The translations under genes were made by a program, and so were the position numbers. Source: Planctomycetota bacterium (GTDB taxonomy: Bacteria > Planctomycetota > PLA2 > JAEUHO01). Taken from it: 32,273 nt of DNA. Every line of letters starts with the position of its first letter. Within the stretch, counting starts at the first letter, position 1. The notes under the pieces are model-generated. The model worked only from the letters and a program-made list of their open reading frames with translations, searched no databases and was not told the origin of the DNA. This document shows positions 6,563 to 27,898 of this stretch, piece after piece. Location of the stretch: contig JAJDEM010000246.1 of assembly GCA_029259795.1 (NCBI GenBank), positions 1-32,273 of the forward strand. The letters are read 5' to 3'.

Positions 6563-8326
6563 ATGACGGACTCCACCCCCAACACCCCCGATCTGCCGCA
6601 GGACGGCGGCGATGCCGAGGCCGGGTGTGGGCACACGGACGCTGACGCGGGGGCTGAGAGGGGGGCGGCGGAGCTTCTCGTGGACGCCCTGGCCCTCCTC
6701 GCCAGCGAACAGCATACGAACGGCCCAAGCGCTATCGGTGCCGAGCGGCTTCCTGCCGAGTTGCGCGCCCGGGCGCTGGCGGCGTTCGACGCGTCCCTCC
6801 GGGAGGCTGCCTCCGAGAGCCTGCCGGTCGAAGCGCGGCAGACCGCCGTCGCGGGCCACGCAGCCGAGCGCTTCAGCGATGACCTCCTCGCAGAGGCGCT
6901 CCTGCTGGAGGCCCTGGCAGCAACCCCCGCGGAGGGCCTCTCCCTCGGCGTCCGGCACGCGGCCCTTGCCTGCTTCGAGCCCGCGGCGGAGCTCGCGAGC
7001 GCTGCTGCCCCGGTTGGGCAGGCCGCCCCGGTTGGACAGGCCGCCCCGGTTGGACAGGCCGCCGTGCGCGCACGGCCGCTGCGGGGCCGCCAGCTGAAGC
7101 CCTTGTTCGGCGCCCGCGGGCTGGCCGTGGCTGCGCTGCTCCTGGTTGGCGTTGGGATCGCGTTCCTGCTCGCCGGCGACGGCGAGGAGGCCTACGCCGG
7201 TCTTACGCTGCGCGCCTTGGCGCGCGCCGACACCGCCGGGGCCGTTCAGACCTCGCGGGTCGAGCCCGGCTACCGCGCCGCGTTCGGGCGCCGCTTCACG
7301 CCGAGCGAGGACGAACTCCTGAGCTTCCGCTTCGCACACGACGCCATGCTCGTCGTCGGGGCGGGAGATGCCGTCCGCGTCAGCCGCACCGCGCTGGTCG
7401 ACGCCCAGGCGTTGCAGCGCGGCGCGACACGCACGCCAGTCCACCTCTTGCGTCTCGAGTCGGGCGAAGCCCAGCTCGCGACGCGCGAGCATCCCATCCC
7501 GTTGGAGATCGACGGGATTGGCGTGCTGGTGCTGGAGTCCGGCGCGGCGCATGTCGCGGTGGACGCCGGCGATGGTGCGCACGCACCCGCCGTTGCCCTG
7601 CACGCCCACAGCATCGCCCGCTTCTACCGCGCGGACGGAAGCGCGTCGGTGCCGCTCGTCGGTCCGGCCCGGGTCCTGCTCGCTGCCGACGGCATCAAGG
7701 CCTTCGGTGCGCCGGCCCGGGGGCTCTTCCACGATCTGCGCTTCTTCGGGGGCTCGCTGCCGGCGACCACGACGGAGCGGGCCGTGTCCGCGCGGCTCTT
7801 CCGCGCTCGCGCGACGAACGGCGCCTTGCGTCGAGGCCGGCAGGACGTTCGCGTCCTGGCGCGCAGCGGCGAGGCGGCCGACATGCTGCTCACGTGGACT
7901 CCGGAGCCGGCCGTCGGCGCGGCCTACGCGCTCAAGGTGGCGCTGCGGGCGCCTGCCGGCACGCGCGTGAGCCTCGCGCAGAAGCGCGCCGTCGAGGGCG
8001 AGACCGGGAACGCAGCACCGGCCCTGGCGACAGCCACCGTCGTCCGGACGGACGGTGCTGGCGAGCCGGACGGCGCCGGCGAGCCGGGCGTGGCCGTCGT
8101 CACGCTGGCTCTGCCGCGAGATTGGCTCGAGCGCCTTCCCGGCGGTCGGGTGGAACTTCGGCTGGAGTGCCCGGCAGCCACCAAGCCGGCGGCCACCAAG
8201 CCGGCGAGCGCCAAGCCCACGACAACGCCTGCGAAGACAGCCCGCGCCGTCATCGCCTGGTTTGACGGCATCGCGCTGGTCTTCGGTCCCGAGCCCGAGG
8301 GCCGGGATGGACGGCAGGCGCACTAG
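6563..8326 (+). CDS. Single-pass membrane protein with repeated cytoplasmic helices and FecR-like outer part
   Basis: The 587-residue protein has one transmembrane segment at about 186-203 ('GLAVAALLLVGVGIAFLL'). The cytoplasmic half contains three diverged copies of a short helix: 'ERLPAELRARALAAFDA' (~61-77), 'ESLPVEARQTAVAGHA' (~85-100) and 'EGLSLGVRHAALACFEP' (~124-140). 'ELLVDALALLASEQ' and 'DLLAEALLLEALAA' repeat likewise. An 'APVGQA' triplet repeat precedes the membrane. The outer ~380 residues are rich in predicted beta strands. The stretch 'HLLRLESGEAQLATREHPIP' followed by 'VLVLESGAAHVAVDAG' resembles a FecR-type domain, then comes an Ala/Thr/Lys/Pro linker and a final beta segment. 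FecR-type proteins relay outside signals to sigma factors, which fits the upstream ECF operon, but similarity is weak and the function is inferred. Confidence 0.55.
   Translation: MTDSTPNTPDLPQDGGDAEAGCGHTDADAGAERGAAELLVDALALLASEQHTNGPSAIGAERLPAELRARALAAFDASLREAASESLPVEARQTAVAGHAAERFSDDLLAEALLLEALAATPAEGLSLGVRHAALACFEPAAELASAAAPVGQAAPVGQAAPVGQAAVRARPLRGRQLKPLFGARGLAVAALLLVGVGIAFLLAGDGEEAYAGLTLRALARADTAGAVQTSRVEPGYRAAFGRRFTPSEDELLSFRFAHDAMLVVGAGDAVRVSRTALVDAQALQRGATRTPVHLLRLESGEAQLATREHPIPLEIDGIGVLVLESGAAHVAVDAGDGAHAPAVALHAHSIARFYRADGSASVPLVGPARVLLAADGIKAFGAPARGLFHDLRFFGGSLPATTTERAVSARLFRARATNGALRRGRQDVRVLARSGEAADMLLTWTPEPAVGAAYALKVALRAPAGTRVSLAQKRAVEGETGNAAPALATATVVRTDGAGEPDGAGEPGVAVVTLALPRDWLERLPGGRVELRLECPAATKPAATKPASAKPTTTPAKTARAVIAWFDGIALVFGPEPEGRDGRQAH
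7007..7060 (+). repeat. 18-bp direct repeat, three copies
   Basis: The unit GCCCCGGTTGGRCAGGCC is present three times back to back with one variable base. It encodes the in-frame hexapeptide APVGQA just before the transmembrane segment. Near-identity of the copies indicates recent slippage expansion. Confidence 0.9.
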
Positions 8327-8349
8327 ACATGCTGGATAGAATCACCAAT

Positions 8350-8393
8350 CGCACGCGGTGCGTTCGGCCTCTTCGCCGAACTCACCCCGGAGG
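8350..8393 (+). promoter_or_regulatory. Leader hairpins and strong Shine-Dalgarno before the giant pseudopilin gene
   Basis: Two adjacent perfect stem-loops are visible: CGCAC-gcg-GTGCG (8350-8362) and GTTCGGC-ctcttc-GCCGAAC (8362-8381), sharing one base. GGAGG at 8389-8393 follows, with seven bases to ATG 8401. This fixes the start at 8401 rather than the longer 8329 ORF start. With no T-run, the hairpins are more likely a structured leader than a classical terminator. Confidence 0.5.
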
Positions 8394-8400
8394 TACGACG

Positions 8401-11400
8401 ATGCTTACGACCAAACTTCGCTCCTTGGGTTCGTGTACGCACGCGGGGGCAACGGCCCGCTCGCGCGGTGTCGCGATGCTCATCGTCATCACGATCCTCG
8501 TGACGATGGTGCTTGTGGCCTTGCCCTTCGCGCTCTCCATGCGCCAAGGCCAGGACCGCACCCAGGCCGTCGGGGCCCGTGCGCGTGCGCGGCTCGAGGC
8601 AGAGAGCCTCGCCGAGATCGCCAAGCTCTACCTGGGCTCCACCACCCCCTGGCAGGAGCAGAAGCGCGCCAACCAAGGCGGCATGGGCGTCGACTCGATG
8701 CCGCTGGTCGACAGCCTCGCGGAGATCACCCCGAACGACGCGTTCCGGTCCACGATCGAGAACGAGATCATCACGATGTGGGAGAAGGACCCGTCCACAG
8801 CCGGTCGGGCCAAGTACCTCAAGTCGCGCGGCCTCGGCCCGATGAACGATGATCGTGGCTCCATCTGGACCGTCCTCATTGAGGATGCCCAGGCACGCGT
8901 GAACGTCAACGGCGGTCAGATGTTCCTGCTCGCCAACCTCATGGGGTCGGCTCTCCTTGCCGACGAGGTCGATACCGGCGGCGGCGATATTGCGGTCGAG
9001 CACGTGGTCACCGGCCGCTTTGGCGGTCTGCGCGGCTTCAACCCGAAGGGTGGCTACATCCGCATCGGTCGGGAAGTCATCAAGTACGAAGAGTTCGACG
9101 GCGAGGCCTTCCGGGGGTGCGAGCGTGGCGTCCTGATGGGCACACCGCTCGGCGACAACGGAACGGCCCAAGCGCACAAGCGCGGCGTGCCCGTGATCGA
9201 CTACACCGCCTACAAGCTCGCGACGCACATCATCGCGAGCCGCCCCGGCGAGCTCGCGCCCTTCGAAAACCTCGAGTCGCTGCGCGCCATCAGCGGCTGG
9301 GGCGAGGATGGCGTCCTGTCCGCCGATCGCCTCGAGCGCGTCCTGCCCTACCTCACCGTCTGGAGCAAGCGCGAGTCGTCCGCGACGTGGCTTGCCGATC
9401 AGCTCGTCATGAACGAGCTGCCCGGGTCCCTCGATGGCGGCGAGCCCGAGGAGCTGCAGCTGCGCGATTTCCGCGCCAACCCGTCCGGCACCTCCGCCTA
9501 CCTCAACCCGGGCTGCATCGCGCGCATCAGCAATGGCGTGCGCTCGGTCTACCAGGTCATCGATCAGGTCGGCGACCGTGAGGGTCGTCGCCGCGACGCG
9601 TTCGCGACCACAGCCGGCAGCGTCTCGGCAAGTGTCCCCGAGTCCCAGCGCGAGCACGTGAAGTACCAGGGCGGCGAGACCAAGGTCGCCGCGCTCGCGC
9701 CGTACCCGATCAACATCAACACGGCCTCGCGCGAGGTCCTCTACGCCGTGATGGCCAACGTCCAGCTCTGGCGCGCCGAGGGCAAGGACCAGGTCGTCAC
9801 CCCCGAGCTTGCATGGTCCCTGGCTGGCGAGATCGTTCGCGAGCGCAAGGGACCGCTGAGCGCGGACAAGGACTCCGGCGCCCGTAAGAGCGGTCCGTTC
9901 CGGCACGCGACCGACTTCGGCCGCTGGCTTGAGATGAAGGTCAAGAGCAGCGAGATCAAGCGTGAGCACCACGCGGCCCTCTACATCAACGCCATCAACC
10001 CGCACAGCTCGCAGCTGCGCTTCGGTACGGCGCCGTGGAACTTCCGTACGCTCGACGTCTACCACCTCGAGGCCCGCGTCGCCCTCAACAACCGTGCTGG
10101 TGAGCAGATCGCCGAGTCGAGTGTCCGTGAGGTCGTCGAGATCGGCTCGGACGCTGTCGCGAGCGCCACCCTCGACTCGCAGGACGACTTCGAGATGCGC
10201 CTTGCCATGGGCAGCGGTGCCAAGTGGGTCACGACCTACCCCTTCGGTGTGGCCTGGAAGAGCAAGTCCCACGCGCACATCCAGCCCGCCATCCGCGGTC
10301 CGAAGAGCATTCTCTACAACATCTACCCGAGCGTGACCCGCGGCCAGGACATGGGGGATGTGCGTCTCGAGCCCGTCCGCATGCTGCTGCCCGGCGCACA
10401 GGTGGAAGAGCACTTCGACAACAATCACTATGCCGACGGCCACTACACCGGCTACGACCAGGCCTACACGCGTCCCGTGAAGGACACCTTCATGGGCCGT
10501 ACGGACAACATGGTGCGGCCCTTCTCGATGTCCTTCTGGTGGCGTCCGTACAGCGACCAGGACTGGACCGTCTTCGACACCGGCGTCGAGGAGTACATGA
10601 ACCGTTTCGCGCTGTTCGTCCAGGATGGCGAGAAGGGGCAGGAACTCACCTTCCGCTGCTCGGCGGGCAACAACTGGCGACAGGCCGCCGAGGTCTACGT
10701 GCCGATGGAGCAGCTCGACTATGAGCCCGGCACCTGGTACCACATCCATGTCTCGTGCTTGGGCGAAGACCCCGCGACGATGCAGTTGCTCATCGACGGC
10801 GTCGACATCGGCAAGCGCCGCGGCATGACCCGCACCAGCGGTTCGGTCACCATGGACAGCGAGGAGATCGCCGTCGAGAGCACGGATGGCTTCCCGGTGC
10901 GTGGCTCGATCCGGATCGGCCGCGAGATCATCGAGTACGAAACCCTGACGGACTCCGCGTTCCGTGACTGCTTCCGCGGTCAGCGCGGCACCGCAGCGCT
11001 CGAGTACCCGGCGAACACCCCCGTCTACATCAACGGCTACTCGATGCCGCTCACAGTGGATGTGATGAAGGGCGGCGCGTCGATCAACGAGCGCCTCGGC
11101 AAGTGGTCGGCCCTGCGCATCTCCACCATGACCGGAACGCCGGCCCCGGACACCGTGCCTGTCGTTCTCGACGGCATGACGACGCCCATCATCCTGGCGG
11201 GCTTCGGGCCCGAGCAGCGCAACATCAGCGTGACGGGTGTTGGCATGTGGGGCCAGGACGACGCCGAGGGCGCTGAGGCGTTCCCGACGCGCGGCCTCGC
11301 GCTCATGGGCTGCCCGGAGATCGCGAACGCCACCACGGGCTCCGGCGGTCCCGCCGGCCCGGCCGCGAACGCAATGCGCAGCATCGCCGCCCCCGCGGAT

Positions 11401-14400
11401 GGCGAGCCGCTCCCTGAACAGCCCGAGGGCGACGAGGGTCCCGAGGAGGGCGGCGAGCCGCGTCCTGGTGACGGGGTACCTCCCGGTCGTGAAGTGCCGG
11501 ACGGCGAGGGCGGTGGCGATCCCGTGCCGGTCCCGGATGGCGAACCGGCGCCCGACACCGGAGACGGCGGCGGCGAGGACCCCGCCGCGGGCGGTGGCTC
11601 CGACATCAAGCTCGGCGGCTGGGAGGTCGTCTACTACGAGCGCAGTGGCAACGAATTCACCATCGAGCGCTACGTCAAGTCCGCGTGGCAGGGGGAAGCC
11701 GATCCGTACTTCCTCATCACCGAGAACCAGACCGCGCAGACCGAGTTCCCCGCGTTCCTGGTTCCGATCTCCGTGATGGCCTCGGGCGGCACCGAGCAGG
11801 GCCAGGACTACCTCGATCCGAGTGAGCCGGCGCACGAGACGATCCTCACCCGCTACTACCCGAACGAGCCGGCAAGCGCGTACGTCGCGCTGTCGACGGA
11901 CGGCGTGCCCGAGGGTGAACTCGAGATCATTCGCTACGACTCCATCGAGCGCAACCGTGCGGCACCGGACATCCTGTTTGTCCGTGATCGCAACATCGGT
12001 GGCGTGACCAGCCACTTCTTCGGCAACTCGCAGACGTTGGCGGGCGGATCGGCCACGCCGGATCCCGACGACACCGAGCCGCCGGTGCCGCCGCTCCCGG
12101 ATGAAGAGCCGCCGGTGCCCCCGCCGCCGGGCGATGACACACCCGATCTTCCGCCCCAGGACGGACCGGACAGCCCCGAGGAAGGCGGCGACCCGACGCC
12201 CGGCGACGGCCTGCCCCCCGGGCAGCGTCAGCCGACCGATCCCACCGGGGACGACGGCGGCGAGCCCACCGATCCCGGCGGTGGCGGTGACACCGGCGAC
12301 GGCGACGGCACCGGCGACGATGATGGCGCGCCCCTCCCGAGTCCGGGTCCCGGCGGTGATGTCGAGCCCGGCGACGACGAAGGCGAAGACGGCGAGCCGA
12401 TCGACCCGACCGACGACGGCAGTGGGTCCGGCGGCGGTGGCGGTGGTCCGCTGGATCCGCAGGACGGCGAAGGCGGTGAAGAAGAAGGCGGCAGCTTCGA
12501 TGGCGGTGACGACGTCGGACCCGGCGATCGCCCGGGTGGGGACGCCGACGGTGGCGGAGCCGCGCCCGGCGACGGCGCCGGCGACGGCCCCCCCGAAGAA
12601 GAGCCGGCACCGGATGAGTCCGGCGGCGGCTCCGGCGGCGGCGAAGAGGAAGAGGGCGATGCCAAGATCCCGAGCGTGCCCCCGGGCACCCGTGATCCGT
12701 CCGACGGCGATGCCGGCGGCGACCAGGAAGACAACGGCGACGAGATCGGCAACGGCGCCGTCTGGGAGCCCGAGGGCCCGACGACGGCAGCCGCCCAGCT
12801 CAGGTTCCGTGGCTACGTGGGTGACAACCCGCAGCAGCAGGATGGTGGCGGGGACGCCCTGGCCGCCCGCCTGGGTCTCGACCACGGCGGCGCCTCGGGG
12901 GACAACCTCGCGTACTTCCTGCCGTGCTTCCGTGCCTGGGAGGCGTCCAACGGGGCGGCTCTGGCTCGCACCGGCCGCAACGACGTGATCACCATCAGCA
13001 CGGGCGGCGAAGAGCCGACGCGCGTGGAGGTCGGCGTGCGGTGGGGCGATCCGACATCGGACTGGACGGCCCTCGACGACTGGGTGGAGAATCGCGTGGA
13101 GGCTCCGGCGACCGGGGCGACGACGCGTCGCAACGACCCGCGGGGTTACCCGCGCATTCTGCGCTTCCCCTGCGGTGAGCTGCCGGACGACATGAGCCAG
13201 GACGTCGAGTTCGGCCAGAGCCAACTCTCGGGCGCGGGCCTCGTGACGGCCTTCCTCGACGAACTGTTCGTCTGGCGACACACCCACGACACGCGGCTCT
13301 TCGTGAACAACAACGACGGCCTGACGGAAGAGGGCGATGAGATCCGCATTGCCAATGGTGGGACGAATCAGGACCTGAGTACGCTCGATGGCTACGACCG
13401 CAAGTGCGGACTCGTCCTGGTCGGCGGCGAGCTGATCGCCTACCGCGACAGCCGCATGGAGGGCACCAACACCCTCGTCCTCGAAGGCTGTGAGCGCGGC
13501 ATCATGGGGACGGCTACGGCCTTCCACCCCATTGGCGACCCGTTGCGCTTCCTGCCGGATCTGCCCGTGTCCTATCTTGAAGGCGGCATGACCGCGGAAG
13601 GGGCGAGCGTCCCGATGGCCCGCACGAACGGCTGGCCCAAGGAGGGCACGGTCCGGATCCTGCGGGAGGACACCGCGGAGATGGTGCACTACACGCGCAT
13701 GAGCAACGGCGAGTTGCTCATGCCGGAGTCGATCGACAACGACAACCGCTCCCGTGGGCGTGGACTGTTCCGAGGTCGCTACGGCACCGACGCCACCGAC
13801 CACGACTCGCGTGAGATCGTGCTCTTCCAGCCGTTCCGGTTCTGGGACCGCTACACCCCGCGGCGGGGCGAGAGTGCCGATGCCTTCGACGGCATCCACG
13901 ACCATCCCGAGTGCTCGTACCTGGAGCTCGGCTCCAAGGCCCGCTCTGCGCTCTGGCGTGGGTTCACGTGGTCGGAGAACCTGCGCGGTCGTCTCAGTGG
14001 CTCCGACGGGGGCGTAGGCAACAACGATGGCTCGGAAGCCAGCAGCGGCTACATGGACATCTACGTGCTCGCGCGCTTCAACCCGAACGTCCCGTGGGAC
14101 ACGGACCAGATCGTCGATCTGCGCCAGGACCAGGGCATGGGCCGCAAGGCCGACCTGTCCGGGAAGCAGAACTCCCACCTGTTCATCTTCGACGACACGG
14201 GCTCTTCCGCGATCGGCCACGGCCGCTCCGGCAACGAGCTCAACGTCGAGTCGGACACGGCGGAGTTCCGCCTCTACTTCGTGTACAAGGCCAATGCGTT
14301 CACGCCTGTTGACAGTGCGCGGCGTGGGGGTGGGGGCTCGCTCGAGGAACCCGTGCTCAGCAACCCCTGGAAGCAGACGCCCTGGCTGCGGGCGTTCAGC

Positions 14401-14451
14401 CTGAACTACTTCAGCCGGACCGAGACCCGCTACAAGGCCGTCGAGCGCTAG
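8401..14451 (+). CDS. Giant GspK-like pseudopilin with LamG-like domain and repeated surface modules
   Basis: The 2016-residue protein begins with a class III (prepilin-type) leader. 'SRG' then 'VAMLIVITILVTMVLVALPF' resembles the RG/VALL start of GspK minor pseudopilins, with cleavage expected after Gly23. 'YPININTASREVLYAVM' (~435-451) is the INxNTA signature of the GspK family. After this come a concanavalin/LamG-like domain (~705-807, 'FSMSFWWRPYSDQDWTVFDT', 'GTWYHIHVSCLGEDP'), a Gly/Pro/Asp/Glu linker (~996-1069), a middle domain, a second acidic linker of ~243 residues (~1216-1458) and a large C-terminal region. A module of the form I-x-I-G-x-E-x-I-x-Y ... RG-x-x-GT-A-x-x-H occurs near residues 218-268, 815-878, 1667-1715 and, more diverged, 1738-1815. 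Ordinary GspK is about 300-350 residues. The role is probably a pseudopilus tip or surface adhesin, by inference. Confidence 0.7.
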   Translation: MLTTKLRSLGSCTHAGATARSRGVAMLIVITILVTMVLVALPFALSMRQGQDRTQAVGARARARLEAESLAEIAKLYLGSTTPWQEQKRANQGGMGVDSMPLVDSLAEITPNDAFRSTIENEIITMWEKDPSTAGRAKYLKSRGLGPMNDDRGSIWTVLIEDAQARVNVNGGQMFLLANLMGSALLADEVDTGGGDIAVEHVVTGRFGGLRGFNPKGGYIRIGREVIKYEEFDGEAFRGCERGVLMGTPLGDNGTAQAHKRGVPVIDYTAYKLATHIIASRPGELAPFENLESLRAISGWGEDGVLSADRLERVLPYLTVWSKRESSATWLADQLVMNELPGSLDGGEPEELQLRDFRANPSGTSAYLNPGCIARISNGVRSVYQVIDQVGDREGRRRDAFATTAGSVSASVPESQREHVKYQGGETKVAALAPYPININTASREVLYAVMANVQLWRAEGKDQVVTPELAWSLAGEIVRERKGPLSADKDSGARKSGPFRHATDFGRWLEMKVKSSEIKREHHAALYINAINPHSSQLRFGTAPWNFRTLDVYHLEARVALNNRAGEQIAESSVREVVEIGSDAVASATLDSQDDFEMRLAMGSGAKWVTTYPFGVAWKSKSHAHIQPAIRGPKSILYNIYPSVTRGQDMGDVRLEPVRMLLPGAQVEEHFDNNHYADGHYTGYDQAYTRPVKDTFMGRTDNMVRPFSMSFWWRPYSDQDWTVFDTGVEEYMNRFALFVQDGEKGQELTFRCSAGNNWRQAAEVYVPMEQLDYEPGTWYHIHVSCLGEDPATMQLLIDGVDIGKRRGMTRTSGSVTMDSEEIAVESTDGFPVRGSIRIGREIIEYETLTDSAFRDCFRGQRGTAALEYPANTPVYINGYSMPLTVDVMKGGASINERLGKWSALRISTMTGTPAPDTVPVVLDGMTTPIILAGFGPEQRNISVTGVGMWGQDDAEGAEAFPTRGLALMGCPEIANATTGSGGPAGPAANAMRSIAAPADGEPLPEQPEGDEGPEEGGEPRPGDGVPPGREVPDGEGGGDPVPVPDGEPAPDTGDGGGEDPAAGGGSDIKLGGWEVVYYERSGNEFTIERYVKSAWQGEADPYFLITENQTAQTEFPAFLVPISVMASGGTEQGQDYLDPSEPAHETILTRYYPNEPASAYVALSTDGVPEGELEIIRYDSIERNRAAPDILFVRDRNIGGVTSHFFGNSQTLAGGSATPDPDDTEPPVPPLPDEEPPVPPPPGDDTPDLPPQDGPDSPEEGGDPTPGDGLPPGQRQPTDPTGDDGGEPTDPGGGGDTGDGDGTGDDDGAPLPSPGPGGDVEPGDDEGEDGEPIDPTDDGSGSGGGGGGPLDPQDGEGGEEEGGSFDGGDDVGPGDRPGGDADGGGAAPGDGAGDGPPEEEPAPDESGGGSGGGEEEEGDAKIPSVPPGTRDPSDGDAGGDQEDNGDEIGNGAVWEPEGPTTAAAQLRFRGYVGDNPQQQDGGGDALAARLGLDHGGASGDNLAYFLPCFRAWEASNGAALARTGRNDVITISTGGEEPTRVEVGVRWGDPTSDWTALDDWVENRVEAPATGATTRRNDPRGYPRILRFPCGELPDDMSQDVEFGQSQLSGAGLVTAFLDELFVWRHTHDTRLFVNNNDGLTEEGDEIRIANGGTNQDLSTLDGYDRKCGLVLVGGELIAYRDSRMEGTNTLVLEGCERGIMGTATAFHPIGDPLRFLPDLPVSYLEGGMTAEGASVPMARTNGWPKEGTVRILREDTAEMVHYTRMSNGELLMPESIDNDNRSRGRGLFRGRYGTDATDHDSREIVLFQPFRFWDRYTPRRGESADAFDGIHDHPECSYLELGSKARSALWRGFTWSENLRGRLSGSDGGVGNNDGSEASSGYMDIYVLARFNPNVPWDTDQIVDLRQDQGMGRKADLSGKQNSHLFIFDDTGSSAIGHGRSGNELNVESDTAEFRLYFVYKANAFTPVDSARRGGGGSLEEPVLSNPWKQTPWLRAFSLNYFSRTETRYKAVER
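11386..11607 (+). other. Coding low-complexity acidic linker 1
   Basis: About 74 codons rich in Gly, Pro, Glu and Asp ('EGDEGPEEGGEPRPGDG', 'GEPAPDTGDGGGEDPAAGGG') separate the LamG/module region from the middle domain. The composition suggests a disordered, negatively charged spacer. Confidence 0.8.
12046..12774 (+). other. Coding low-complexity acidic linker 2 (~243 residues)
   Basis: A long Gly/Asp/Pro/Glu-rich stretch ('DGDGTGDDDGAPLPSPG', 'DGEGGEEEGGSFDGGDD') joins the middle and C-terminal domains. It has almost no hydrophobic residues and a very high acidic charge. Short Asp/Gly runs recall calcium-binding loops, but I see no regular RTX nonapeptide (GGxGxDxUx) or DxDxDG register. The frame stays open throughout, so this is a real part of the protein. 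Confidence 0.8.
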
Positions 14452-17309: not shown

Positions 17310-17525
17310 CTACAGGAAGAGGGCGATCACGATGCCGAGCGTGGTCAAGCCCGCCGTGAGGTACTCACCCCATCCGATCGACTCGCCCGGGCTCGTTCCC
17401 GCGCGCTGTCGCCCGGTCACACCCTCCGCGGTCATGGCTGCTGGTGTCATGGCTGCTGGTGTCATGGCCGCAGTTCCCATGGCCGCAGCTGTCGTTGCCG
17501 CTGGGGTCAGCATCCGTGTGGGCAT
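17310..17525 (-). CDS. Small tail-anchored membrane protein of unknown function
   Basis: The 71-residue ORF has the best ribosome binding site on this strand nearby: GGAGG five bases before the ATG (plus-strand CCTCC at 17531-17535). The protein has an Ala/Met/Thr-rich N-terminal half built from a degenerate five-residue repeat ('AAMTP'), a polar middle, and a C-terminal hydrophobic segment ('YLTAGLTTLGIVIALFL') ending exactly at the stop. That gives a tail-anchored topology. It lies 106 bp upstream of the LpxL-like gene on the same strand and may be its co-transcribed leader gene. I do not recognise a family. The plus-strand ORF over the same bases lacks a comparable ribosome binding site. 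Confidence 0.6.
   Translation of the reverse strand: MPTRMLTPAATTAAAMGTAAMTPAAMTPAAMTAEGVTGRQRAGTSPGESIGWGEYLTAGLTTLGIVIALFL
17431..17490 (-). repeat. 15-bp tandem repeat, four degenerate copies, in the small membrane protein gene
   Basis: On the plus strand GTCATGGCTGCTGGT occurs at 17431-17445 and 17446-17460. Two diverged copies follow at 17461-17475 and 17476-17490. They encode the Ala-Ala-Met-Thr-Pro repeats on the minus strand. A 15-bp unit keeps the reading frame when copies are gained or lost. Confidence 0.8.
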
Positions 17526-17737
17526 GGAATCCTCCCTCGATCGACAGCGAGGGTAGGTGGTTGGGGGGACAAGGATGTGGAGTGACGTAAAGTCTTTTCA
17601 TAGAATCTCTTGTGTCGTTTTGACTGGCATTTTCCCCGGAGTTTCCACCCACAATCCACACGGCTGGAGGCACTTGGGGTGCGCGCACCCCACGCCGGAG
17701 CCACGCCAGCGGGGCGGGCCACCCGTAGGCTGGGCCC
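17526..17737. promoter_or_regulatory. AT-richer divergent promoter region
   Basis: This 212-bp gap separates divergent genes. At about 17575-17655 it contains one of the most AT-rich patches in the window ('gtaaagtcttttcatagaat'). On the plus strand TTGACT (17620-17625) matches a -35 box at five of six positions, but I could not pair it with a good -10 at 16-18 bp. On the minus strand TATGAA (in 'GATTCTATGAA') could be a -10. The ribosome binding site of the minus-strand gene lies at 17531-17535. A promoter pair is likely here, but exact boxes are uncertain. Confidence 0.4.
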
Positions 17738-19600
17738 ATGCGTCGCTGCCTCATCGTGTGTCTGGTTCTCGCCGCGGGGGCGCCCGCGCGCGCCGAAGAA
17801 GGGAAGGAGGCGGCCTGGTTCACCAACGTCGCGGCCGAGGTGGGCCTCGGGGCAGTGAAGGCCAAGGACTGCATCTTCACCGATCTCGACGGCGACGGCT
17901 TCTGGGACCTCTGCATCGACCGGCAGCACTTCTACCTCTCGAAGGCAGGCCGCCGTTTCGAGGCGCATACCAAGCACGGCATCGAGTTCCCGGCCATCCG
18001 CAAGGTGCCGGTCGGGAAGGACGGCAAGGCCGACGAGGCCAAGGCGAAGGACATCACCTTTGCACCGCACTATCTCTACTTCGCGGATCTGAACAACGAC
18101 GGGCATCAGGATGCCGCCTGGGGCGTGCACGCGTGGTGGGAGCGCCTTGATGGGCGCACTTGGAAGGACGTCGAGGGGTGCGACCCGGGTGTGCGGAGCA
18201 CGATCTGGCTTGGCACCGGCAAGGGACGGTTCAAGCGCGGCCCCGCCTCGGGCTACACGGCCAAGGACGCCGTCGGTCCTGCGATGGCACTCGCCCTCGT
18301 CGACGTCGACAACGACGGGGTGCTCGACCTCTACGAGGGGCGGGAGTATCGGCAGTACGGACAGCTCGTCGGCTGCGGTGTCGACCGGCTCTGGAAGGGC
18401 GACGGCAAGGGAGGGTTTGTCGACGGCACCGAAAAGGCCGGTCTGCTGACGAGCCCGCAGCCCTTCACCGGGCGCACCCTCCCGGAGAAGGGCAAGCGCG
18501 ACGTCCTGCGCTTCTCCCGGCCGACGTACGGCGTCACGCACTGCGACTGGAACAACGACGGCCACCAGGACCTTCTGCAGCTGGCCTACGGACGGCAGTG
18601 GAACTACCTGTGGCGCAACAACGGCGACGGGACGTTCACCGACGTCGGCCTCGACACCGGCTTTGCCGGCGACGAGGTGACGGATGGCAAGTACCCGGCG
18701 TTCGTGCGCCGGCCGCCGGAAGCGCCCTTTCGAAGCAACGGCAACACGTTCGATTGCGCCATCGGGGATCTCGACAACGACGGGGACTTGGACTGCTTCC
18801 TCGGCGAGATCGCCCACTTCTGGGCAGGGCCCGCCTCCGATGTGCCGTCGCTGCTTCACAATGGAGGCAAGGAGGCGAGTTTCGCCTTCGAGCGGGAGAC
18901 GGTGCGCGAGGCGTTTCCGCTGCGGAAGTTCCGCACGCCCGATCGCTGGAACTTCGGCGATCTCCACGCGGCCTTTCTCGACGTCGACAACGACGGGCGG
19001 CTCGACGTCCTGATCGGCTCGGGTGACTACCCCGATGGCCAGTACTTGCGCCTCTATCGCCAGACGGAGGCTGGGGGGTGGGACGAGGTCACCCAGATCG
19101 CCGGCTTTGATTGGGAGGGGTGTGGCGATCTCTCGATCGGGGACTTCGATCGTGACGGGGACGTGGACATCCTCGCGGGACGCTCGTTCATGCGCTTGAA
19201 CAAGGCGCACCGCGAGCAGTACATGGGCGGCATCGAAACCAATCTCGTCGGACTCTTCCGCAACGACATCGCGAATCGCAACGGCAACCACTGGCTGAAC
19301 GTGCGCCTGGTAGGCAAGGGGCAGGGCGGCGCGAATCGCACCGGAATCGGCGCGCGCGTGAGCGTCACTGCCGGGGGCATTACCCAGATGCGCGAGCTGC
19401 GTGCTGGCAGCGGCCTCGCGAATCACCAGGACGCGCCCGAAGCCTGCTTCGGACTCGGCAAGGCCACCACGATCGACCGACTCGAGGTGCGCTGGCCCAA
19501 CGCCAAGCGTGACGTGCAGGTCTTCACGGACGTGCCCGTGGATCGGTTCCTGACCGTCCGTGAAGGATCGAAGCGATGGAAGGCGGAGAAGCCGCGGTAG
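17738..19600 (+). CDS. Secreted CRTAC1-type protein (VCBS/FG-GAP repeats plus ASPIC/UnbV domain)
   Basis: The 620-residue protein has a signal peptide ('CLIVCLVLAAGAPARA'). It carries at least seven calcium-loop motifs of the VCBS/FG-GAP propeller kind: DLDGDGFWD, DLNNDGHQD, DVDNDGVLD, DWNNDGHQD, DLDNDGDLD, DVDNDGRLD and DFDRDGDVD. The C-terminal ~100 residues form an ASPIC/UnbV domain ('NHWLNVRLVGKG', 'ARVSVTAGG', 'LRAGSGLANHQDAPEACFGL', 'IDRLEVRWPN'). Proteins of this architecture are exported or surface-exposed, bind calcium, and are abundant in planctomycetes and related phyla. Their roles are generally unproven, with adhesion or carbohydrate binding often suggested. It starts the plus-strand block leading into uppP only nine bases after its stop, so the two may be co-transcribed despite no obvious functional link. 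Confidence 0.88.
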   Translation: MRRCLIVCLVLAAGAPARAEEGKEAAWFTNVAAEVGLGAVKAKDCIFTDLDGDGFWDLCIDRQHFYLSKAGRRFEAHTKHGIEFPAIRKVPVGKDGKADEAKAKDITFAPHYLYFADLNNDGHQDAAWGVHAWWERLDGRTWKDVEGCDPGVRSTIWLGTGKGRFKRGPASGYTAKDAVGPAMALALVDVDNDGVLDLYEGREYRQYGQLVGCGVDRLWKGDGKGGFVDGTEKAGLLTSPQPFTGRTLPEKGKRDVLRFSRPTYGVTHCDWNNDGHQDLLQLAYGRQWNYLWRNNGDGTFTDVGLDTGFAGDEVTDGKYPAFVRRPPEAPFRSNGNTFDCAIGDLDNDGDLDCFLGEIAHFWAGPASDVPSLLHNGGKEASFAFERETVREAFPLRKFRTPDRWNFGDLHAAFLDVDNDGRLDVLIGSGDYPDGQYLRLYRQTEAGGWDEVTQIAGFDWEGCGDLSIGDFDRDGDVDILAGRSFMRLNKAHREQYMGGIETNLVGLFRNDIANRNGNHWLNVRLVGKGQGGANRTGIGARVSVTAGGITQMRELRAGSGLANHQDAPEACFGLGKATTIDRLEVRWPNAKRDVQVFTDVPVDRFLTVREGSKRWKAEKPR

Positions 19601-19609
19601 CGTGGTCCC

Positions 19610-20560
19610 ATGCCGCGTCTGGGTTGGATCGTCCTTGTTGCCTTGGTGATCCTCGCAGGGGTGCTGACGGTCGTGTTCGCGCCCGCGTACGACGCCCGGG
19701 ACGCCCAGAACATGACCCTCTGGCAGGCCGCGCTGCTCGGCACCATCGAGGGCGTGACGGAGTTCCTGCCCATCAGCTCCACGGGGCACTTGTTGGTGGC
19801 CCAGCAGGCGCTCGGGATCGGCACACGCGACGCCCAGGCCAAGCACGCAGCCGATGCCTTCGCCATCTGCATCCAGCTCGGAGCCATCCTCGCGGTGCTG
19901 GGCCTCTACGCCGGGCGGGTCGGCAGCATGACGCGCGGCCTCTTCGGCCGGGATCCCGCCGGGGCACGGTTGCTCGGTCGCGTGCTCTGCGCGTTCCTGC
20001 CCGCCGCTGTCCTGGGACTCCTCCTGGGTGAGCAGATCAAGGCACATCTCTTCGGCCCGTGGCCGGTCGTGCTCGCCTGGGCCGTCGGGGGCGGGGCGAT
20101 CCTCGCCGTCGTGTGGTGGCGGACACCCTCGGAAGGCGGCGCGGGGGCCCATGCGGGCAAGCGACTTGCCGAGCTCAGCGTGCGCGCTGCCCTGGTCATC
20201 GGGCTGCTGCAGTGCGTGGCCATGTGGCCGGGCGTGAGCCGTTCCCTCGTCACCATCGTGGGGGGGGTGCTCGCCGGGCTGAGTCTCGGGGCGGCGGTGG
20301 AGTTCAGTTTCCTGCTCGGGCTCGTGACCCTGAGTGCGGCGACGGGCTACGACGTCGTCCGCCACGGGGCGCAGCTCAACGAGGCCTACTCGCCCCCGGC
20401 GCTGCTCGTCGGGCTCTGCTTCGCCTTCGTCAGTGCGCTGCTCGCCGTCCACTGGATGGTCGGCTATCTGCGCTCGCATGGGCTTGCGCTCTTCGGCTAC
20501 TACCGCCTGGCCGTCGCGGCGCTGGTCGTCGTCCTGCTCCTGACGGGCGTGCTGGCGTAG
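19610..20560 (+). CDS. uppP: Undecaprenyl-diphosphate phosphatase (UppP/BacA)
   Basis: The 316-residue polytopic membrane protein has both UppP active-site motifs: 'EGVTEFLPISSTGH' (~47-60) and 'WPGVSRSL' (~206-213). It removes a phosphate from undecaprenyl diphosphate on the outer face of the membrane, recycling the lipid carrier used for peptidoglycan and surface polysaccharides. An extra N-terminal hydrophobic helix (~7-24) precedes the normal start of the fold, making it slightly longer than typical members (about 260-290 residues). An internal start is possible, but no better ribosome binding site is apparent. Its stop is three bases from the stop of the convergent CorC-like gene. Confidence 0.95.
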   Translation: MPRLGWIVLVALVILAGVLTVVFAPAYDARDAQNMTLWQAALLGTIEGVTEFLPISSTGHLLVAQQALGIGTRDAQAKHAADAFAICIQLGAILAVLGLYAGRVGSMTRGLFGRDPAGARLLGRVLCAFLPAAVLGLLLGEQIKAHLFGPWPVVLAWAVGGGAILAVVWWRTPSEGGAGAHAGKRLAELSVRAALVIGLLQCVAMWPGVSRSLVTIVGGVLAGLSLGAAVEFSFLLGLVTLSAATGYDVVRHGAQLNEAYSPPALLVGLCFAFVSALLAVHWMVGYLRSHGLALFGYYRLAVAALVVVLLLTGVLA

Positions 20561-23020: not shown

Positions 23021-25036
23021 GTGAACGACAACCCCATTATGGGCCTGATCAAGGTGGGCGCCTTCGCCCTATTGGCCTTCTTCACGGCGATGGTCTTCTG
23101 GCAGCGCACCGAGCTCGAGGACAAGATCCAGGGCCTCACGACCAAGGTGAGCGGCCTCGAGGAGGCCACCGAGCGCCACACGAGTGCCGTCGAGCGCCTC
23201 GAGGCCAAGATCAAGGGCGGCGGTGGCGGTCTCACCAACGTCGCCGACGAGAAGCCCGCGGAGTTCTACGCCTGGGGCAAGACCCCGCCGCCGTGGGTCA
23301 AGGGCCGCGCCGCCGCGCTCTGGGGCAAGCACGGGGACAACTTCCTCCAGCCCGATCCCGACGAGCCGAAGTCGATCTCCATCGACGATCCGCGGGCAGA
23401 TCCCGACGGGACCATGACCCGCTACTACGGGAGCAATCCCCCCGACACGAACGCTGTGACGCTCAACGAGAGCGACTTCAACATGCGTATCCGCAAGACC
23501 TGCAGCGACTTGCTTGCCGTGGCGCACACGAAGAACCCCTACCGCTACGCGCCGAAGCTGGCCTACCGGGTGGAGCACTCGGCCGACCGCAAGCAGTGGG
23601 TGCTCTGGCTGCGCCCGGGCGTGAAGTGGCACACGCCCCAGGTCGACCTCGAGAAGTATCCGCACCTCAAGGGGGAGCACGAGTTCACAGCGGAGGACTG
23701 GGAATTCACCATGACCTGCGTCATGGACTCGACGGTGAACACCTCGCATCACCGCGCCTACTTCGAGGGCTTCGAGCGTGTCGAGATCGTGGATGATCAC
23801 TGCTTCATCATGCACTGGAGCAAGCCGACCTGGACTGCCATCGGCTCGAACCTGAACCTGCTTCCGCCGACTCCGAAGTTCGTTTACGGCTATGACGAGA
23901 GCGGGAATCCGATCGAGGAGGCCAGCCGCGGCCAACAGATCAACGAGCACTGGTTCGGCAAGGGCTATCACTACGTCGGCACGGGGCCGTACTACGTGCG
24001 CGAGTTCCGCAAGGAAGACGTCGTCATCTGCGAGCGCTTCAATGGCTACTGGGGTCCGGCACCCGCCATCAAGAAGCACGTGATGCCGGTGTTCTCTGGC
24101 GTTGCCGCCGCCCAGACCGAGTTCGAGGCCGGCCACTTCGCGCTGCAGGCCTACCGGGTCCCCACCTTCAAGAAGAAGGTCGAGACTCTGGACGCCTACA
24201 AGGAAGGCAAGATCGACAGTACGTGGTTCTGGTCTTCGTCCTTCAGCTACATCGGCTACAAGAATAGCCATCCGATCTTCAAGGACGTAAAGGTCCGGCG
24301 TGCAATGACCCACGCGTGCAACCGCGTGAAGATTCTCGACCTCGTCAATGAAGGCCGCGGAAGGATCCTGACGGGCCCCTCGTATTGGCGTGCGCCCACC
24401 GCGCCCAAGGACGTGCTCCCGCTCGCCTTCGACCTTGCGAAATCCGCAGCGCTACTCAAGGAAGCCGGCTGGGCCGACACGGACCAGGATGGCGTCCTCG
24501 ACAAGATCATCGACGGCAACAAGAAGAGCTTCGAGGTCGTCGCCAAGATCCCGAGCGGCGGATCTTGGATGCTGACAGCGTTCAAGGTCTTCAAGGAAGA
24601 TCTGCTGAAGGTCGGCGTGAAGCTCGAAGTCGAGACCCTCGTGTGGTCGCAGTACCTCAAGGAGGTGACCGAAGACCGCAACTTCGAGATCTGCGCGCTC
24701 GGCTGGAACACCAGCGGCTGGGACAACGACTTCACCCAGATCTGGAGCTCGACGATGATCGACGAGCCCAAGTCCAGCAACCACATCGAGTTCTCGGATC
24801 CCGAGGTCGACCGGCTCATCGAGAAGGCGCGCTTCACGTTCGAGGAGGAAGAGCGCATCAAGGTGCAGGGCGCGGTCCACCGCCGACTCAACGAGCTCCA
24901 GCCTTACACGTTCCTGTTCACCTTCGAGGCGAAGGTCGCGTGGTGGAAGGATCAGCTCTCGGACCTCAACGCCGGAAACCAGTGGTACACGCGACCGTTC
25001 CTGCGCCTGTGGCCTGTTTGCGTACCCAGGAAGTAG
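23021..25036 (+). CDS. Oligopeptide-type ABC transporter substrate-binding protein with membrane anchor and coiled-coil stalk
   Basis: I place the start at GTG 23021 because GGAGG (23011-23015) lies five bases upstream; the 981-residue track ORF extends artificially into the divergent gene. The 671-residue protein has a signal-anchor helix (~8-27, 'LIKVGAFALLAFFTAMVFWQ'), a heptad-like stretch (~29-65, 'ELEDKIQGLTTKVSGLEEAT') and a Gly5 hinge. A family 5 solute-binding fold follows: 'APKLAYRVEHSADRKQWVLW', 'LRPGVKWHTP', 'GTGPYYVREF', 'FKDVKVRRAMTHACNR', 'LKEAGWADTDQDGVLDKI'. No lipobox is present. The family delivers peptides, nickel or other small solutes to the permeases. The two permease genes follow 10 bp downstream and overlap. 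The anchor and stalk are unusual, since most members are lipoproteins or free periplasmic proteins. Confidence 0.88.
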   Translation: MNDNPIMGLIKVGAFALLAFFTAMVFWQRTELEDKIQGLTTKVSGLEEATERHTSAVERLEAKIKGGGGGLTNVADEKPAEFYAWGKTPPPWVKGRAAALWGKHGDNFLQPDPDEPKSISIDDPRADPDGTMTRYYGSNPPDTNAVTLNESDFNMRIRKTCSDLLAVAHTKNPYRYAPKLAYRVEHSADRKQWVLWLRPGVKWHTPQVDLEKYPHLKGEHEFTAEDWEFTMTCVMDSTVNTSHHRAYFEGFERVEIVDDHCFIMHWSKPTWTAIGSNLNLLPPTPKFVYGYDESGNPIEEASRGQQINEHWFGKGYHYVGTGPYYVREFRKEDVVICERFNGYWGPAPAIKKHVMPVFSGVAAAQTEFEAGHFALQAYRVPTFKKKVETLDAYKEGKIDSTWFWSSSFSYIGYKNSHPIFKDVKVRRAMTHACNRVKILDLVNEGRGRILTGPSYWRAPTAPKDVLPLAFDLAKSAALLKEAGWADTDQDGVLDKIIDGNKKSFEVVAKIPSGGSWMLTAFKVFKEDLLKVGVKLEVETLVWSQYLKEVTEDRNFEICALGWNTSGWDNDFTQIWSSTMIDEPKSSNHIEFSDPEVDRLIEKARFTFEEEERIKVQGAVHRRLNELQPYTFLFTFEAKVAWWKDQLSDLNAGNQWYTRPFLRLWPVCVPRK

Positions 25037-25046
25037 GCGGGCACCT

Positions 25047-26516
25047 GTGCTCACCTATGTAGTCAAGCGCGTCCTGATCATGATCCCGACGTTCTTCGGG
25101 GTCTCGCTGGCCATCTGGCTGGTCATGACGTCGGCGCCCGGTCGGCCGACCTCGGGACAGAGCCAGGGGCCAGGCGGCGGCGCCGATGGCGGCTCCAAGA
25201 TGGAGGGCCGCGCGGGCAAGAACGTGAGCGAGCGGATCTTCCGCCATCAGTTCGGCCTCAACCGGCCGCGCTTCTGGAACGACTGGGTTGCGCTGGAGAA
25301 GGACGAGGTCCTCGGCTTGGTCGTCACGCGGATGGAGGGCCCCGCAGAGCACGGCATCAAGGCCGTGACCAAGGCCTCGGACGCGCTGGAGAACTTCGAC
25401 CGCTTCGCTGTCCCTCCGCTCGTCGAACTCCTGCAAGAGACCGAAGGCAAGACCCAAGACGCCGTCCTTGGCTGGCTGCGTGCCAGTGCGTTCCAGTATC
25501 CGCCGCTCCTTGAGGACGGGAAGCAGCGTACCGATGCGGAGGTCGCGCGCGACCGCAAGATCGATCTCGAGAACAAGCGTCTCGATAGCGCTGAGTTGAA
25601 CTGGGAACCAGGCGCGTCGGCTCCAGAGCGCGCCTCCGTCGTGGCCAGCTGGAAGGCCTGGTGGGCCGAGCATCAATCGACGGCGCGCTGGAGCTATCTC
25701 GACGATGGCTGGGAGCGCACGAAACTGCGCTTCGCCGATACCCAGTTTGGCAAGTACTGGGCCAACCTCTTCTCCCTCGACTTCGGCAAGAGCTTCAAGA
25801 GCAACGAGCCGGTCGTCGACATCATCCTCGGCAAGCTCAAGTACAGCCTCTCGCTTGCGGTGCCGTCGTTCATCATCGCGTGGATCCTGGCTGTGCTACT
25901 CGGCGTGATGGGCGCCGCGAACCACAACAAGCCCTTCGATCAGGGCTCGGCGATCGTGCTGTTCATGCTCTACAGCATTCCAAGCTTTCTCATGGGCACG
26001 GTGTTGCAGCAGGCCTTCGCCGTGGACCTGGGCTGGTTCCCCGTTTCACGGTGGGAAAGCGTGGACGCCCAGTCTATGAATACGTGGGAGCAGTTCCTCG
26101 ACGTCATCACGCACCTCTGGCTGCCCATGATCTGCTACACCTACGGTTCGCTGGCGCTCATCTCGCGCCAGGCGCGCTCAGGCATGCTCGAGGTCCTCAG
26201 CAGCGACTTCATTCGTACCGCCTACGCGAAGGGCTGCACACGGCGACAGGTGATCTGGAAGCACGGCGTGCGCAACGGCATGATGCCGCTCATCACGATG
26301 CTTGGTACGGCGCTCCCGATTCTTCTCGCGGGCAGCGTCGTGATCGAGTCCATCTTCGGTATCCCGGGCTTTGGCAAGGCCATGCTCGACGCCATCCTGG
26401 CGAAGGACTACAACCTCGTCATGGGGGTCGCGCTGCTGTCGTCCGTGCTCACTCTCATCGGTCTCCTGATCGCTGACATCCTCTACGCCATCGTCGATCC
26501 GCGGGTGTCATACTGA
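25047..26516 (+). CDS. ABC transporter permease, DppB/OppB type, with large extracytoplasmic insertion
   Basis: GTG start, 489 residues, against the usual ~310-340. The start 'YVVKRVLIMIPTFFGVSLAI' and 'IFRHQFGLNRPRFWNDW' (~64-80) match the OppB N-terminus, and 'SLDFGKSFKSNEPVVDIIL' (~243-261) resumes the core. Between them lies an insertion of about 155 residues with HEAT-like helices ('FAVPPLVELLQETEGK', 'AVLGWLRASA') and a Trp-rich 'SWKAWWAEHQSTARW' segment. The remaining core has the permease EAA-like loop 'RTAYAKGCTRRQVIWKHGVR' and 'GSVVIESIFGIPGFGKAMLDAI'. The insertion would lie in the first outer loop, where it could contact the binding protein. It ends in TGATG with the next permease. 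Confidence 0.9.
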   Translation: MLTYVVKRVLIMIPTFFGVSLAIWLVMTSAPGRPTSGQSQGPGGGADGGSKMEGRAGKNVSERIFRHQFGLNRPRFWNDWVALEKDEVLGLVVTRMEGPAEHGIKAVTKASDALENFDRFAVPPLVELLQETEGKTQDAVLGWLRASAFQYPPLLEDGKQRTDAEVARDRKIDLENKRLDSAELNWEPGASAPERASVVASWKAWWAEHQSTARWSYLDDGWERTKLRFADTQFGKYWANLFSLDFGKSFKSNEPVVDIILGKLKYSLSLAVPSFIIAWILAVLLGVMGAANHNKPFDQGSAIVLFMLYSIPSFLMGTVLQQAFAVDLGWFPVSRWESVDAQSMNTWEQFLDVITHLWLPMICYTYGSLALISRQARSGMLEVLSSDFIRTAYAKGCTRRQVIWKHGVRNGMMPLITMLGTALPILLAGSVVIESIFGIPGFGKAMLDAILAKDYNLVMGVALLSSVLTLIGLLIADILYAIVDPRVSY

Positions 26517-27898
26517 TGGCCGGCAACGTAGAGCCCCCGACCCCGCACAGCCACGGCGAGACCCAGTGGCAGATCGCCTACCGGCAGTTCCGGAAGCGAG
26601 GCTCGGCCGTCTGGGGCCTTCTGGGCGTCCGGATTCTGTTCTATCTGGCTGTCTTCGCACCGGTTCTCTGTTGCGGCCTTCCGCTCGCGTGGCGGGAGCC
26701 CGGCGGCTCGTTGACCTTCCCGTGGTTGGCCAAGGTGTTCGATCGCCTCTACTGGGCCAATGGCGTCGATCGGTTCTTCAATCTTCTGATGTTCGTTGTG
26801 GTCGTCTGGTGGATTGTGCAACTCGTCCTGCACCTGACGTTGCCGGACCCGGCCGCACGGGCCCGCGCGCGCGGCAAGGCCATGCGGTGGGCCATGGGTG
26901 CTGTCGTCGTGCTTGGCCTCTTGCAGGGCTTCAAGGTGCCACCCTTGTGGTCCAGCGAGCCGTACACGGACTATCAAGAGCTCTCCGTCCGCTACTCGGC
27001 CCAGCAGGAACTCGCCGAGCAGCGCCTGCTAGCGATCGCTGTGGAGCAAGAGACGGCGACCCCCGACGAGAGCGCCACGCTTGACGAGGAACGCAAGACC
27101 GTGGCCGCCCGCCTTGCCGACCTCGAGGGTCGCACGGAGCTCTTCACGTTCGTGCCGTTCGGCCACCGCGAGCAGAGCGCCTTGGGATCCGTGGATCGCT
27201 TCCGCGGACCGATGGAGCGCTCAACTCACGGCTTCCATGTGCTGGGCACCGCGCTCGAGGGCCAGGATGTGCTTGCGCAGTTGCTCTATGGCACGCGCAT
27301 CTCGCTTACCGTCGGGCTGCTGGCCGTCGCGATCTACGTCACGATCGGCCTGATTCTTGGCGGCATCGCCGGCTTCGTTGGGGGGACCACCGATCTTCTG
27401 ATCATGCGGCTCGTCGAAATCGTGATGTCGGTGCCGGGGCTGTTCCTGATCCTCACGATCATCGCGCTGTTCAACAACCGGTCGATCTTCATGATCATGA
27501 TCGCCATCGGAATCGTCGGGTGGACAGGGATTGCACGTCTCGTGCGCGGCGAGTTCATCCGCGAGCGCGGCAAGGACTACGTGGCGGCGGCACGCAGCTT
27601 GGGCTTCTCCGGTCCGCGCATCCTTTTCCGTCACATCATGCCGAATGCCGTCGCGCCGGTCATCGTCGCCGCATCCTTTGGCGTGGCCTCTGCCATCATC
27701 GTCGAGTCCACGCTGTCGTTCCTCGGACTGGGCGACACCAACGTGCCCTCCTGGGGCCAGATGCTCAACGTGGGCCGCGAGAACGGGGAGTGGCACCTGA
27801 TCATCGTGCCGGGCTTGGCGATCTTCGTCACGGTCACGATGCTGAACCTCGTCGGCGACGGGCTGCGCGATGCCCTCGACCCGAAGATGAGGAAATAG
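26516..27898 (+). CDS. ABC transporter permease, DppC/OppC type, with extra transmembrane pair
   Basis: The 460-residue protein starts one base before the upstream stop ends (TGATG), implying translational coupling. The usual OppC N-terminal helix (~35-58) is followed by two extra hydrophobic helices (~88-106 'RFFNLLMFVVVVWWIVQLVL' and ~125-142). A charged, coiled-coil-like segment (~155-205) comes before the family motif 'HVLGTALEGQDVLAQLLYGT' (normally GTD-x-x-GRD). The core then follows with the EAA loop 'DYVAAARSLGFSGPRILFRH', 'PNAVAPVIVAASFGVASAII' and 'ESTLSFLGLGDTNVPSWGQM'. No DppD/DppF-type ATPase genes follow, so the ATPases must be encoded elsewhere or shared with another importer. 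The additions match the enlarged partner permease and suggest a specialised complex. Confidence 0.9.
   Translation: MAGNVEPPTPHSHGETQWQIAYRQFRKRGSAVWGLLGVRILFYLAVFAPVLCCGLPLAWREPGGSLTFPWLAKVFDRLYWANGVDRFFNLLMFVVVVWWIVQLVLHLTLPDPAARARARGKAMRWAMGAVVVLGLLQGFKVPPLWSSEPYTDYQELSVRYSAQQELAEQRLLAIAVEQETATPDESATLDEERKTVAARLADLEGRTELFTFVPFGHREQSALGSVDRFRGPMERSTHGFHVLGTALEGQDVLAQLLYGTRISLTVGLLAVAIYVTIGLILGGIAGFVGGTTDLLIMRLVEIVMSVPGLFLILTIIALFNNRSIFMIMIAIGIVGWTGIARLVRGEFIRERGKDYVAAARSLGFSGPRILFRHIMPNAVAPVIVAASFGVASAIIVESTLSFLGLGDTNVPSWGQMLNVGRENGEWHLIIVPGLAIFVTVTMLNLVGDGLRDALDPKMRK

Follow-up and report, generated by a model that had tools for sequence, protein, structure and literature searches.

The window analysed here, a stretch of 32,273 nucleotides, contains an operon in which the gene for a 489-aa DppB/OppB-type permease lies between those of an SBP_bac_5 binding protein and a DppC-type permease, partners that assign it to a type I importer (Table 1). 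The permease gene starts directly after the stop of the binding-protein gene, and its own stop shares bases with the ATG of the DppC gene (TGATG). Its core is that of an ordinary DppB/OppB permease: the Pfam domain BPD_transp_1 covers residues 282-488, the coupling-helix motif 'SDFIRTAYAKG' is present, and DppB/OppB proteins of E. coli and M. tuberculosis are the only strong sequence matches in the PDB as well as the best structural matches of the predicted model, E. coli DppB ranking first (8z1v_A, TM-score 0.77 by target). With E. coli DppB of the DppABCDF complex (PDB 8z1v, 8z1y; PMC12136057) it shares the transmembrane core and topology, the scoop region between TM1 and alpha3, and the RTA sequence of the coupling helix. 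NCBIfam Opp/DppB models match the protein only from about residue 232 onward, and none of the named NCBIfam equivalogs (Opp4B, DppB, NikB and others) scores above its curated cut-off, the top score being 227.5 bits versus a cut-off of 450. Elsewhere in the window, a 2040-aa ORF (8329-14451, +) matches no Pfam family above the curated cut-off, and two ORFs of 990 aa (17507-20479, -) and 587 aa (6563-8326, +), putative genes, gave no Pfam match.

Table 1. Features of the importer operon, with positions in the window
Feature	Position	Strand	Remarks
SBP_bac_5 binding protein; N-terminal TM (predicted uncleaved), Q-x4-E exit motif, coiled-coil-like stretch	23039..25036 (putative start)	+	SBP_bac_5 1e-53
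DppB/OppB-type ABC permease, 489 aa	25047..26516 including stop (ORF 25047-26513)	+	GTG start; Pfam BPD_transp_1 7e-37
Flexible Gly-rich linker, residues 35-57	25149..25217	+	pLDDT <50; position of the E. coli DppB scoop loop (presumed equivalence)
Inserted HEAT-like, W-x-x-W helical domain, residues 77-231 (~155 aa)	25275..25739	+	predicted folded, conserved; profile matches HEAT proteins
HEAT-like hairpin, residues 105-148 (AVPPLVELLQ / AVLGWLRASA)	25359..25490	+	predicted helices 104-131 and 134-148
W-x-x-W cap and R-W-x-Y motif, residues 192-217	25620..25697	+	W202/W205 ~89%, R214 84% of 44 homologues; predicted helix 192-209
alpha3 and start of core (TQFGKYWANLFSLDFG...)	25740..25826	+	T232, F234 and Y237 invariant
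DppC-type permease with two predicted extra TM helices before core	26516..27898	+	hydrophobic maxima at residues 87 and 126

The permease differs from E. coli DppB in the span from TM1 to the core, which measures about 200 residues compared to about 35 in the E. coli protein. When the protein is aligned with relatives that lack the insert, a single, sharply bounded block, flanked by GLNRPRF (70-76) and TQFGKYW (232-238), has no equivalent in them, and the insert is therefore placed at about residues 77-231; the initial annotation, which had put it at residues 81-235 (25287-25751), was correct to within a few residues. That annotation was also right to locate the block in the first outer loop of a DppB-type permease: in the alignment the block follows the scoop helix ('GLNRP') and precedes alpha3 ('TQFGKYWANLFSLDFG') of the first periplasmic loop.

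AlphaFold2 prediction of the whole protein gave a pLDDT of about 85-95 over most of residues 71-240, with disorder confined to residues 35-57, and the insert modelled alone forms an all-helical domain (mean pLDDT 95.4, pTM 0.90). Across 44 homologues N176 is conserved in 98%, P123 and L125 in 95%, and W215 and Y217 are conserved as well, next to the tryptophans and arginine listed in Table 1. With the two nearest relatives in which the gene is complete as reference, dN/dS is about 0.2-0.3 for the insert versus about 0.15 for the core; for the insert the ratio climbs to about 0.7 with L005, which is more distant, at near-saturated synonymous sites. By these ratios the insert is under purifying selection, and the models point to a genuinely folded, conserved domain on the outer face of the permease. 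A disordered and unconserved insert, which the initial annotation had named as the outcome that would go against it, is contradicted by the confident predicted fold, the conserved residues and the dN/dS values. The chance that the block arose as an assembly artefact, by frameshift or by gene fusion is negligible: open frames with the same domain occur in dozens of independent assemblies, and nothing was found in favour of such an origin.

Full-length homologues bearing the insert were found in all genus and family relatives with a complete gene and on more than 40 further contigs. The full-length relatives carry the labels Planctomycetota, Myxococcota, other 'Deltaproteobacteria', Cloacimonadota, Sumerlaeota, Brocadiia and Lujinxingiaceae, which are names of metagenome-assembled genomes and may be wrong. 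At E<=1e-6 the insert occurs in 22 of the 149 sampled genomes of the phylum, and a Pfam scan of the insert matched no domain. This agrees with the earlier claim that the insert is not a standard DppB feature, and speaks against its presence as a known domain in most DppB proteins of the phylum. Protein-domain libraries and the literature, when searched, yielded no name for the domain, and no relevant paper on HEAT repeats or insertions in such permeases was found. In the source genome itself, the two other DppB paralogues matched, on C80 and C315, showed no match to the insert, the loop of the former being short on reading. On a tree of the core only, the insert requires 3 changes versus 20 with shuffled labels (by a quick method, and with several long branches in the tree), and it may have had a single origin. 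Together, these comparisons show that the insert is not peculiar to the source genome and that it characterises, in conserved form, a subfamily of permeases spanning several phyla. A conserved domain of a core transporter thus escapes annotation that relies on Pfam only.

When the profile of the insert was compared with the PDB, the best matches, at E values around 1e-4, were mostly HEAT/ARM proteins (CpcN, 1.4e-4; the synthetic fusion E4-NB2, 1.9e-4), together with designed alphaReps (7e-4 to 2e-3) and, only weakly, deoxyhypusine hydroxylase and transportin; the matches span profile positions of about 31-112. HEAT-repeat and alphaRep proteins share with the insert the hairpin pattern AVPxLxxLL ... 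A..L. They differ from it in that the insert has about one hairpin and gave no confident structural match: a Foldseek search against the PDB returned nothing below E 0.5, the top weak matches including the CLASP2 TOG domain and importin-9 (TM-score about 0.3), and the insert is therefore not a HEAT solenoid. Moreover, none of the Pfam HEAT models reaches its cut-off on the insert, and 2 of the 44 members match at E 0.08. A full multi-repeat solenoid being unsupported, we conclude that the insert is HEAT-derived, with about one recognisable hairpin followed by a tryptophan cap. The HEAT-like, helical character noticed in the initial annotation thus holds, whereas 'helical-repeat domain' is too strong for the 489-aa permease, because it has one hairpin and no PDB fold match; tandem copies are found in relatives. 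Within the order, relatives have the module in duplicate; the inserts of more distant relatives are longer, and W..WW recurs in them. Of the motif first described as 'W-x-x-WW ... W', the W-x-x-W is present; the wording was loose in that the conserved signature is W-x-x-W plus R-W-x-Y.

Within the source genome, the best profile matches of the insert (itself excluded) lie in contigs that are also matched by HEAT_2, a model with more than 150 matches in this genome. In 22 sampled ORFs for HEAT-region proteins, the motif W..W[WFY] was counted 11 times versus 0.12 expected, several times directly after the last repeat; these proteins resemble the insert both in the hairpin pattern and in carrying the cap after the repeat. 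This abundance of capped HEAT proteins, as well as the faster evolution of the insert compared to the core, would fit the view that the insert is a leftover of a HEAT-type module frequent in the genome, tolerated but lacking a specific role. Such a remnant is, however, highly improbable in view of the presence of the insert in several phyla, its near-invariant residues and its low dN/dS against close relatives. As a separate observation, HEAT-repeat proteins with the W..W[WFY] cap occur in the source genome and on L144, L147, L148, L149, L153 and L154, and there seems to be no Pfam model for the cap.

The neighbouring subunits have features of their own. Across the phyla with the insert, the gene order remains binding protein, DppB, DppC. 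At all 46 strongly insert-positive loci with a readable N-terminus, the binding protein has a predicted N-terminal TM anchor and no lipobox, tethering being judged by hydropathy and motif; a Q-x4-E follows the anchor in 38 of 39 checked loci, usually with a coiled-coil-like stretch behind it. Lipoprotein signals were seen on the binding proteins of 7 loci without this insert. In DppC at insert-positive loci, simple hydropathy counts nearly always place about three hydrophobic helices ahead of the core motif, compared to one in the plain homologues L086, L088, L097 and L098. In the window, the DppC protein (26516-27895, +) has, from its first TM to the core, two predicted extra TM helices and a probable coiled-coil region. 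On the tree, insert and anchor provide 1-2 independent pairs, essentially from one clade. These are too few to demonstrate co-dependence, and the co-occurrence may therefore reflect shared ancestry instead of coupled function; a claim of correlated evolution between insert and anchor was dropped for the same reason. What the comparison shows is that the insert, the TM-anchored binding protein and the enlarged DppC are inherited together in one clade. The binding protein of E. coli DppABCDF is soluble, unlike the present one. OppABCD/DppABCD of M. tuberculosis and importers of the OpuA type, whose binding domains are anchored or fused, also keep the binding protein at the membrane; there a lipid or a fusion takes the place of the TM helix and coiled-coil-like stretch predicted here.

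In E. coli, the scoop motif of DppB, which corresponds to the segment just ahead of the insertion point, binds in the DppA cleft and contributes to closing off the route of the peptide; without this motif, both growth and ATPase activity are impaired (PMC12136057). In the maltose importer, a segment of MalF-P2 contacts MalE directly (PMC3150292). MalF-P2 (residues 91-271) is, like the insert, an extra folded periplasmic domain in one type I permease near the binding protein; it belongs to a different family and fold, containing beta-sheets where the insert is predicted to be all-helical. Because the insert lies directly between the scoop helix and alpha3, it would be expected to project next to the binding protein in its docked state. 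On the grounds of this position, the role of the scoop motif and the MalF-P2 precedent, we favour a function as docking cradle for the tethered binding protein, a reading to which we give about an even chance. It is supported by the confident fold, the purifying selection, the TM-anchored binding proteins, the enlarged DppC and the kept operon order. Conversely, L078, L081 and L091, which have weaker inserts, encode signal-peptide or lipoprotein-like binding proteins without TM anchor, which counts against it. The system would be a type I peptide importer consisting of binding protein, DppB and DppC, its ATPase being encoded elsewhere. The N-terminal TM helix of the binding protein, with its coiled-coil-like stretch, would hold this protein at the membrane, the two extra TM helices of DppC could receive this anchor, and the insert, standing beside the docked binding protein, would keep it in register over the channel as MalF-P2 does for MalE. 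We infer that the insert touches either the binding protein or the stalk of the latter, and that it has an effect on transport; the outcome would be a permanently assembled importer. The enlarged DppC in the same operons would also fit an insert that only stabilised the complex, for instance by packing on DppC, with no part in docking. We consider this rather unlikely, given that the DppC additions are partly intramembrane and that a conserved 155-aa periplasmic domain seems more than packing requires.

Few bacterial transporters are as common as peptide importers, and debate continues over the way in which their binding protein is held and then released. A subfamily that spans several phyla and combines an added periplasmic domain with an anchored binding protein and an enlarged DppC would offer a natural test of tethered versus freely diffusing delivery.

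Other DppB proteins also carry additional modules in the same loop. L026 (331-2310, +) and L178 (4142-6127, +), from genome G042, have a WD40 beta-propeller there (5 WD40 stretches, PF00400 8e-31), and their binding protein may be TM-anchored too. A second DppB paralogue (L115, L116, L117 and L118, of genomes G009, G004, G010 and G003, respectively) has a different insert of about 150 aa, probably beta-rich, which in L116 gave no Pfam match. In Bacteroidota DppB the loop holds a sequence-unrelated, helical-looking block.

WD40 propellers and sequence-unrelated inserts in the loop, typical protein-binding modules, together with the conserved W202, W205, R214, W215 and Y217, would suit an insert that binds another envelope partner or, via its aromatics, a peptide or ligand, acting as sensor or second capture site. 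This is an improbable alternative, as the insert adjoins the docking site of the binding protein, and no conserved nearby partner gene was found beyond the importer subunits (SBP, DppB, DppC and ATPases were looked for). The loop between scoop helix and alpha3 might be a domain-swapping hot spot, in which unrelated modules (HEAT-W helical in one or more copies, WD40 propeller, probably beta-rich, and helical in Bacteroidota) hold a membrane-tethered binding protein in an importer architecture not described before. We propose this tentatively, giving it somewhat less than an even chance.

Genes for oligo_HPY ATPases were not found in the 89%-complete assembly; in G008 two separate genes adjoin the operon. 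In other close relatives, the peptide-importer ATPases are apparently fused, in ORFs with two domains and a length of about 610-630 aa that are not linked to the operon (G003:C322, G005:C52, G005:C11, G006:C127 and G007:C196). Finally, L087, L090 and L096 bear, in addition to the insert in the loop, a further segment ahead of the 'FPTG' region, at about residues 340-415 of the ORF, which contains hydrophobic, helix-like stretches.
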